Below are positions 3,713-3,819 of a DNA stretch of 64,000 bases, piece by piece; within the stretch, counting starts at the first letter, position 1, and each line of letters starts with the position of its first letter. A program made the translations under genes and the position numbers. Source of the DNA: Serratia proteamaculans (GTDB lineage: Bacteria > Pseudomonadota > Gammaproteobacteria > Enterobacterales > Enterobacteriaceae); the NCBI RefSeq assembly GCF_013337185.1, contig NZ_SWDE01000001.1:1674001-1738000 (forward strand). Reading direction: 5' to 3'. The notes beneath the pieces were generated by a model. The model had not been told where the DNA came from and did no database searches. It saw only the letters and a program-made list of their open reading frames with translations.

Positions 3713-3736
3713 AATGCCGCCAGAACCGGCGGCATT
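3713..3736 (-). terminator. Rho-independent attenuator in the trpS2 leader
   Basis: On the minus strand AATGCCGCC pairs with GGCGGCATT across the loop GGTTCT (9-bp stem), followed directly by TTTTATT. It lies 46 nt before the trpS2 start and after the leader peptide. Its 5' arm can instead pair with GGCGGCA (3764-3758) just after the leader stop codon, giving a competing antiterminator. Confidence 0.88.
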
Positions 3737-3756
3737 GAAAAGAGGTGTGAATACCC

Positions 3757-3782
3757 GTGCCGCCTTCAGAAGAGGCGCCACC
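3757..3782 (-). promoter_or_regulatory. Regions 1 and 2 of a trp-type attenuator
   Basis: Region 1 (GTGGCGCC, overlapping the second Trp codon and the Arg codon) can pair with region 2 (GGCGGCAC, 3764-3757) with one mismatch in eight. Region 2 can alternatively pair with the 5' arm of the terminator (TGCCGCC, 3734-3728). A ribosome stalled on the Trp codons would cover region 1, freeing region 2 to form the antiterminator. This is the logic of the E. coli trp operon leader. Confidence 0.75.
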
Positions 3783-3819
3783 AGGACTGATTGAGTGTGG
3801 ATTGCATCGGTATATTCAT
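3766..3819 (-). CDS. Leader peptide with tandem Trp codons controlling trpS2
   Basis: A 17-residue ORF reads MNIPMQSTLNQSWWRLF and stops at TGA. Residues 13 and 14 are adjacent TGG codons, placed as in TrpL a few codons before the stop and directly before a hairpin array. It lies between the end of the LysR gene (3824) and trpS2. The SD is weak (AAAAG), and an internal ATG at 3807 could also start it. A TTGACA at 3855-3850 inside the 3' end of the LysR gene is a possible -35, although the resulting 5' UTR would be very short. Confidence 0.8.
   Translation of the reverse strand: MNIPMQSTLNQSWWRLF

Follow-up and report, generated by a model that had tools for sequence, protein, structure and literature searches.

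A predicted leader-peptide attenuator in front of a second tryptophanyl-tRNA synthetase gene in Serratia and other Proteobacteria

Introduction

The attenuator of the Escherichia coli trp operon (trpL; Rfam family Trp_leader) combines tandem Trp codons, mutually exclusive hairpins, and a terminator. In the pheST attenuator, the leader uses Phe codons. Vecchione and Sello reportedly described an attenuator of an auxiliary tryptophanyl-tRNA synthetase (TrpRS) of Streptomyces in 2010. Candidate attenuators before trpS have been published for Streptomyces in a paper that cites pheST as the example of a synthetase from gamma-proteobacteria (PMC1262725, available in part). In Sinorhizobium meliloti, the trpL RNA (rnTrpL) starts with its ATG and controls trpE(G) by transcription attenuation (PMC7298713, available in part).

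Here we analyze a locus with a tandem-Trp leader and a second trpS gene, trpS2, in a 64,000-nucleotide stretch of a Serratia proteamaculans genome; this whole stretch is referred to as the window.

Results

Organization of the locus

The order of the elements on the minus strand is a lysR-type gene (4759-3824), the leader ORF (3819-3766), a GC-rich hairpin with a T-run (3736-3710), and trpS2 (3666-2659). The features are as follows.

4759-3824, minus strand: lysR-type regulator gene, outside the switch, with its stop codon 4 nt ahead of the leader ATG
3855-3850, minus strand: -35 element TTGACA, read from the sequence, within the 3' end of lysR
3831-3826, minus strand: -10 element TACCTT, read from the sequence, ending 6 nt ahead of the leader ATG
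3819-3766, minus strand: leader ORF of 17 codons, MNIPMQSTLNQSWWRLF, predicted to be leaderless
3783-3778, minus strand: tandem Trp codons TGG TGG of the leader ORF, read from the sequence
3781-3773, minus strand: region 1, overlapping the Trp codons; folding with region 2, -14.5 kcal/mol
3768-3766, minus strand: stop codon TGA of the leader ORF, read from the sequence
3765-3757, minus strand: region 2 (A), directly after the leader stop codon, complementary to regions 1 and 3
3736-3728, minus strand: region 3 (B), common to the antiterminator, terminator, and anti-sequestor pairings
3721-3713, minus strand: region 4 (C), followed by the T-run 3714-3710; intrinsic terminator with region 3, hairpin -15.7 kcal/mol
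About 3712-3662, minus strand: start-hiding hairpin over the trpS2 Shine-Dalgarno sequence and start codon (fold prediction)
3698-3692, minus strand: CCGGTGG, within D, the 5' arm of the start-hiding hairpin; complementary to CCGCCGG (3732-3726) of region 3
3678-3674, minus strand: trpS2 Shine-Dalgarno sequence AGGAG, inside the start-hiding hairpin
3666-3664, minus strand: trpS2 start codon, inside the start-hiding hairpin
3666-2659, minus strand: trpS2, tryptophanyl-tRNA synthetase of the TrpRS II type

The preliminary description of this DNA had placed here a Trp-Trp leader ORF, regions 1-4, and a terminator with a T-run followed by trpS2, and all of them were recovered where it had put them. 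Its statement that every element of a trp-type attenuator stands on one synthetase gene also holds for the anatomy: the 1:2, 2:3, and 3:4 helices exclude each other, the stop codon lies between regions 1 and 2, and the terminator is present. A terminator scan recovered the hairpin at 3736-3713.

The locus is like E. coli trpL in having its Trp codons in region 1, a stop codon between regions 1 and 2, the 1:2/2:3/3:4 set of helices, and a terminator. It is unlike trpL in that the switch stands on a synthetase gene, lacks an Rfam match, is predicted to have no 5' UTR, and carries an extra start-hiding hairpin. A comparison of the window and 14 further loci with Rfam, including Trp_leader and T-box, gave no match at the gathering score. 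The Streptomyces auxiliary TrpRS gene is likewise a second TrpRS gene behind a leader-peptide attenuator; it belongs to another phylum, and the available part of its description does not mention a start-hiding hairpin (PMC1262725). The pheST attenuator of gamma-proteobacteria shares with the present locus a leader peptide on a synthetase operon (PMC1262725, available in part).

Tandem-Trp frames were counted over the window. In-frame TGGTGG near a start codon and followed by a stop was found in 16 rows on both strands, corresponding to 15 distinct frames, and the leader ORF 3819-3766 is the only one of these with a terminator after it. Twenty base shuffles of the window gave a mean of 6.5 such rows, none with a terminator. 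The RNA 3830-3700 folds at -42.2 kcal/mol (z -3.0), a value equaled by none of 200 shuffles.

Distribution of the leader

Full-length trpS2 is present in 22 of 30 Serratia genomes; one genome has an internally deleted remnant, and seven have the housekeeping gene only. The preliminary description had proposed a search for a tandem-TGG leader before homologous second trpS genes. The leader precedes all 22 full-length Serratia genes (the 21 loci outside the window were rechecked for it). It also precedes all 80 of the best named relatives among the matches listed, which were chosen by similarity, and 59 of 67 matches in an even sample of the order. Among the 30 Serratia genomes, the pattern TGGTGGCGCCT-N3-9-GGCGGCA is confined to the 22 with full-length trpS2 and present in each of them; one has an extra match elsewhere. 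In the genome with the remnant (G002; L104, about 1440-1750), trpS2 has an internal deletion and the leader pattern is absent.

For the 80 named relatives listed, the leader was defined as a Trp-Trp ORF of 5-45 codons no more than 350 nt upstream of the gene (305 nt in one case). A stricter rule on leader length loses one of them, from Edwardsiella. The order sample contained 394 genomes, and its 67 matches were taken at E <= 1e-60, one being partial. The strict rule found 58 leaders and a looser rule one more; no tandem-Trp leader was found at the other eight matches. Four of these eight genes are 53-57% identical and belong to one family, one is 43% identical, one lies 231 nt from a contig end, and two are others.

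An even sample of the phylum (398 genomes) gave 35 trpS2 matches, and the count of leaders covers 30 of them, the five left out being 38-39% identical. Upstream of these 30 genes, 19 tandem-Trp leaders were found, ten in common with the order sample and nine new. None was found at the remaining 11 inspected genes, which include two gene fragments, three genes of 39-40% identity, and L205. At L205, the candidate leader MDNHAQTQTRFYWPSP (1289-1339 of the reversed locus) has only one Trp codon and stands directly ahead of the conserved AGCGGCAC element.

The leader was also found in Klebsiella, Salmonella, beta- and alpha-proteobacteria, and on one Deinococcus plasmid. All 138 leaders collected by TGGTGG contain exactly two Trp residues, and their remaining residues vary widely. 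Before the housekeeping trpS of the genome that holds the window, the sole TGGTGG within 400 nt lies about 280 nt upstream of the gene. A short leader ORF with adjacent Trp codons, as expected of an attenuator, is conserved, and the leader device is spread over Proteobacteria and is not special to this strain.

Alternative helices and their covariation

In the relatives, regions 2, 3, and 4 are designated A, B, and C; D is complementary to B, and E is the trpS2 Shine-Dalgarno sequence, complementary to D. Covariation was analyzed in an alignment, A1, of 49 of 110 unique leaders, hand-picked for spread (45 of the Vibrio type and four enterobacterial). The B:D helix is paired in 92.9% of the cells, with changes on both sides in seven of nine pairs (0/500 shuffles), and one of its pairs is C-G in 25 leaders and U-A in 24. 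The Shine-Dalgarno helix D:E is paired in 88.6% of the cells, with both-side changes in six of seven pairs (1/500 shuffles); for B:C, these values are 82.3% and five of six pairs (6/500). The A:B (92.2% paired) and 1:2 (90.1%) helices each have both-side changes in two of six pairs, and this count is reached by 433 and 96 of 500 shuffles, respectively. None of 500 shuffles reached the number of paired cells or the covariation score of any of the five helices. Slid controls pair fewer cells for all five and give a lower covariation score for every helix except 1:2, where a slide of +3 scores higher.

Among 17 Serratia and enterobacterial leaders, two central pairs of the 3:4 stem have changed on both sides, and the stem ends show less clear changes of this kind. 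In the 2:3 helix of the same leaders, such a change is found at the outermost pair only, in a single leader in which other pairs are broken. Within the Serratia leaders, no variation was found in the cores of 2:3 and 3:4. The preliminary description had proposed to look for covarying hairpins. Both-side changes are frequent in B:D, D:E, and B:C and few in 2:3, whose core is invariant in Serratia; 1:2 is outscored by the +3 slide.

Duplex energies of single sequences were also compared with shuffles, with a weak outcome that counts against the switch. At p <= 0.05, A:B stood out in none of nine Serratia leaders, two of ten enterobacterial and other leaders, 15 of 28 from Aeromonas, and seven of 60 of the Vibrio type; the corresponding fractions for D:E were 1/9, 2/10, 2/28, and 28/60.

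The window RNA was also folded without the ribosome footprint. With a stalled ribosome and region 4 not yet made, 2:3 forms (-15.0 kcal/mol). A ribosome located at the stop codon leaves just a weak fold (-3.7), followed by 3:4 (-18.4). These folds support the switch. After region 4 has been made, however, 3:4 is the structure of lowest energy for a stalled ribosome as well; antitermination would therefore have to be kinetic.

Terminator and start-hiding hairpin

In the window, the start-hiding hairpin has a predicted energy of -18.7 kcal/mol (z -3.1), equaled by one of 200 shuffles. Nine Serratia leaders show both-side changes at two of its 18 pairs, one pair being U-A, G-C, or A-U. Twelve Aeromonas leaders show them at two of 13 predicted pairs, with a covariation term that is slightly unfavorable overall. 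The Shine-Dalgarno sequence and start of trpS2 thus lie in a conserved helix that has an alternative partner, as in a translational attenuator.

By the rule used here, a terminator is present in 37 of 79 named leaders among the matches listed: in 12 of 12 from Serratia, 19 of 21 from Aeromonas, and six others. The 3:4 helix has the form of an intrinsic terminator in the window and does not have it in most Vibrio-type leaders. Serratia and Aeromonas combine the terminator with the start-hiding hairpin, and Vibrio-type leaders mostly have the hairpin alone. Judging from these sequences, a single sensor appears to act on two outputs, of which the lineages appear to retain different ones. For Vibrio, a model with the ribosome site hidden in the stalled state was replaced by one with three partners, A, C, and D, competing for B.

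Promoter and start of the leader

The promoter set comprised 64 non-redundant leaders from 108 stretches, 107 of them distinct; the window and S. grimesii share one and the same stretch. As the leader start, we took the ATG farthest from the Trp codons within a distance of 60 nt. Counted from the A of this ATG, the outer box has T-35 in 53 leaders, T-34 in 44, and G-33 in 38. Closer to the start, the frequent bases are T-15 (39) and G-14 (41), followed by T-12 (48), A-11 (49), T-8 (44), and T-7 (51). The best-scoring promoter lies 5-8 nt from the leader ATG in 37 of the 64 leaders, compared with 8.3% in shuffles. In the window, the -35 element is one base further out than in the 64 leaders, with a spacer of 18 nt. 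The leader promoter is contained in lysR, which ends 4 nt ahead of the leader ATG. The fixed numbering from the boxes to the ATG is that of a sigma-70 promoter with +1 at the A of the ATG, and so the mRNA is predicted to start at the leader AUG. For such a start there is a precedent in the trpL RNA of S. meliloti (PMC7298713).

Shine-Dalgarno-like 4-mers were found upstream of 11 of the 64 leaders. Six of the seven Serratia leaders are among them, which weakens the leaderless reading for Serratia. The only such stretch seen in the window is a G-run at 3838-3833, 13 nt before the leader ATG. It is located between the -35 and -10 boxes and would therefore be outside the transcript, if the promoter has been read rightly. 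The G-rich stretch in most Serratia copies could be a weak Shine-Dalgarno sequence.

The enzyme and its origin

TrpS2 is a class I tRNA synthetase (PF00579; TIGR00233) with KMSKS in its translation. The nearest named product among the matches listed is from Serratia quinivorans (98%), and the identity with the housekeeping TrpS of the same genome is 28-30%. The best solved relatives are TrpRS II chains, PDB 2a4m and 1yi8 (418 bits), which we take to be the Deinococcus radiodurans enzyme. TrpRS II, the closest solved enzyme, is known for working with nitric oxide synthase (PMC9437257, available in part).

A tree of 48 proteins unites the four Serratia rows in one clade (100/99), nested in a group of 41 rows, all proteobacterial save one MAG labeled Desulfobacterium. 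Outside this group are the Deinococcus, Staphylococcus, Enterococcus, and "Streptomyces" rows and two proteobacterial rows (51% and 41% identical). The plasmid copies of Enterococcus, Staphylococcus, and Deinococcus are 59.0%, 54.5%, and 56.5% identical to TrpS2, respectively. By sequence, TrpS2 is a TrpRS II-type enzyme, and its place is among Proteobacteria. The preliminary description had called the synthetase Bacillota-like, and this assignment is not supported as it stands: Bacillus/Geobacillus-type TrpRS chains score only about 128 bits against the 418 bits of TrpRS II, and the Gram-positive rows stand outside the proteobacterial group. It had also suggested that the gene was acquired together with its switch. 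Given the tree, recent transfer from Gram-positives is unlikely; movement of trpS2 and the switch as a unit within Proteobacteria is likely, because plasmid copies keep the leader.

Plasmid and phage-collection records

In 16 inspected records from the plasmid and phage collections, the leader was found in ten: two from E. coli, three from Klebsiella, and one each from Salmonella, Burkholderia, Variovorax, Proteus (with a GTG start), and Deinococcus. It was not found in the other six, from Acinetobacter (two), Rhizobium, Staphylococcus, Enterococcus, and a "Streptomyces" plasmid.

The Klebsiella plasmid NZ_CP143282.1 (L184, 1776-7467), typed as conjugative, carries two IS1 transposase genes that flank mtr (tryptophan permease), leader-trpS2, and a gene for a diguanylate cyclase, so that genes for Trp uptake and charging are adjacent. 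The plasmid of Deinococcus sp. KNUC1210 (L193, about 1322-1474) has the leader MKGKHAPCQAWWPGS, then a GC-rich hairpin and T-run, then trpS; this arrangement suggests attenuation of TrpRS II in Deinococcota.

Such genes occur in 93 plasmid records, including 24 from Staphylococcus and 22 from Klebsiella; 11 Klebsiella plasmid rows listed (H89-H99) match residues 85-329 only and look truncated. The trpS of the Streptomyces griseorubiginosus plasmid NZ_CP107771.1 (L185) is AT-rich and is joined by a very short branch to the plasmid copy of S. epidermidis; perhaps it is a contamination or a misassigned record. The phage-collection records with such a gene are Acinetobacter phage MD-2021a and Salmonella records of about 500 kb (L183, H21-H24). 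In L183, the trpS gene is found among chromosomal genes such as sucCD, and these records therefore look like bacterial contigs.

Discussion

Conservation and covariation strongly support leader-peptide attenuation of the second trpS as the predicted mode of control. The locus is very probably a ribosome-sensing attenuator of an auxiliary TrpRS, with a transcript from the leader AUG, a choice between 2:3 and 3:4, start hiding, and a spare enzyme that restores charging. Transcription would start at or next to the AUG of the 17-codon leader ORF, as the promoter geometry indicates. When Trp-tRNA is ample, the ribosome would reach the stop codon and cover region 2, region 3 would pair with region 4, and transcription would end; in any read-through RNA, the downstream hairpin would hide the Shine-Dalgarno sequence and start codon of trpS2. 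A shortage of Trp-tRNA, caused by starvation or by an inhibited housekeeping TrpS, would make the ribosome stall on region 1 at the tandem Trp codons; regions 2 and 3 would then pair, and no terminator would form. Since A, C, and D are all complementary to B, the D arm may later take region 3 from A and free the trpS2 ribosome site. The spare TrpRS would then be made and charging restored; induction by uncharged tRNA-Trp, the order of folding, and the benefit to the cell are all inferred.

The same switch may serve as an inducible defense against natural TrpRS inhibitors of the indolmycin type, not as a response to Trp starvation. We consider this purpose a serious possibility, slightly short of an even balance, by analogy with S. 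coelicolor TrpRS1, an induced, indolmycin-resistant second TrpRS with the same logic (PMC9437257, available in part); the occurrence of trpS2 on plasmids also fits it.

Another reading would leave control to translation only, with the start-hiding hairpin as the real output and the "terminator" as the hairpin B:C with an incidental T-run. The start-hiding helix is indeed kept in Vibrio-type, Aeromonas, and Serratia leaders, and a terminator in just 37 of the 79 named leaders listed. However, all 12 named Serratia loci listed have a stem of 10-11 bp (G-T allowed) with a T-rich run directly after it, and control by translation only is improbable.

Action mainly in trans, by the peptide or by the terminated RNA of the leader, might be considered by analogy with peTrpL and rnTrpL of S. 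meliloti: the S. meliloti trpL RNA likewise starts at its AUG, and both the peptide and the RNA act in trans (PMC7298713, available in part). The peptide varies widely outside the Trp pair, as expected of a sensor acting in cis, and action in trans is very improbable here.

That the hairpin is a plain lysR terminator and the Trp ORF a chance frame, as the end of lysR 4 nt ahead of the leader and the 15 distinct tandem-Trp frames of the window might suggest, can be dismissed almost entirely. LysR adjoins the leader in only three of the 12 named Serratia loci listed, while leader and hairpins are kept elsewhere and across orders; the spacing between the promoter boxes and the leader ATG is constant, B:D and D:E covary, and no shuffle of the window gave a tandem-Trp frame with a terminator.

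The preliminary description knew of no attenuation of a second trpS in enterobacteria. This fits the literature searched, parts of which were available, yet the device extends across Proteobacteria, well beyond enterobacteria. The literature searched, with subscription papers outside its scope, gave no report that we recognized of a Trp leader on trpS outside Actinobacteria, and neither trpS nor tryptophan appears in the available main text of a survey of premature terminators (PMC2965389). The kind of control is known, from trp attenuation and Streptomyces trpRS1; its present variant and breadth were not found in the partly available literature searched.

In Salmonella, trpS, an essential gene in E. 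coli, falls narrowly outside the strongly selected class. As a possible reason, the authors propose replacement by its distant paralogue, trpS2 (PMC3487940, available in part). Derepression by falling Trp-tRNA would explain how TrpS2 might do so.

Tentatively, and with slightly more weight against it than for it, a cassette spread through the whole phylum can be envisaged, in which TrpRS II-type genes are joined to a leaderless Trp-Trp leader in Proteobacteria and on at least one Deinococcus plasmid. Its one sensor would lead to termination and/or start hiding, depending on the lineage, and it would be an inducible way to bypass TrpS when this enzyme is poisoned or starved. If this is true, attenuation of synthetase genes extends across Proteobacteria, including Klebsiella, Salmonella, and Vibrio, and the lineages form a natural series with a single leader-peptide sensor coupled to termination, to start hiding, or to both at once. 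The collection would also supply many candidates for leaderless leader ORFs. The switch may explain the lesser need for trpS in Salmonella, and it would predict an inducible way round TrpRS-directed inhibitors in the species that carry it.
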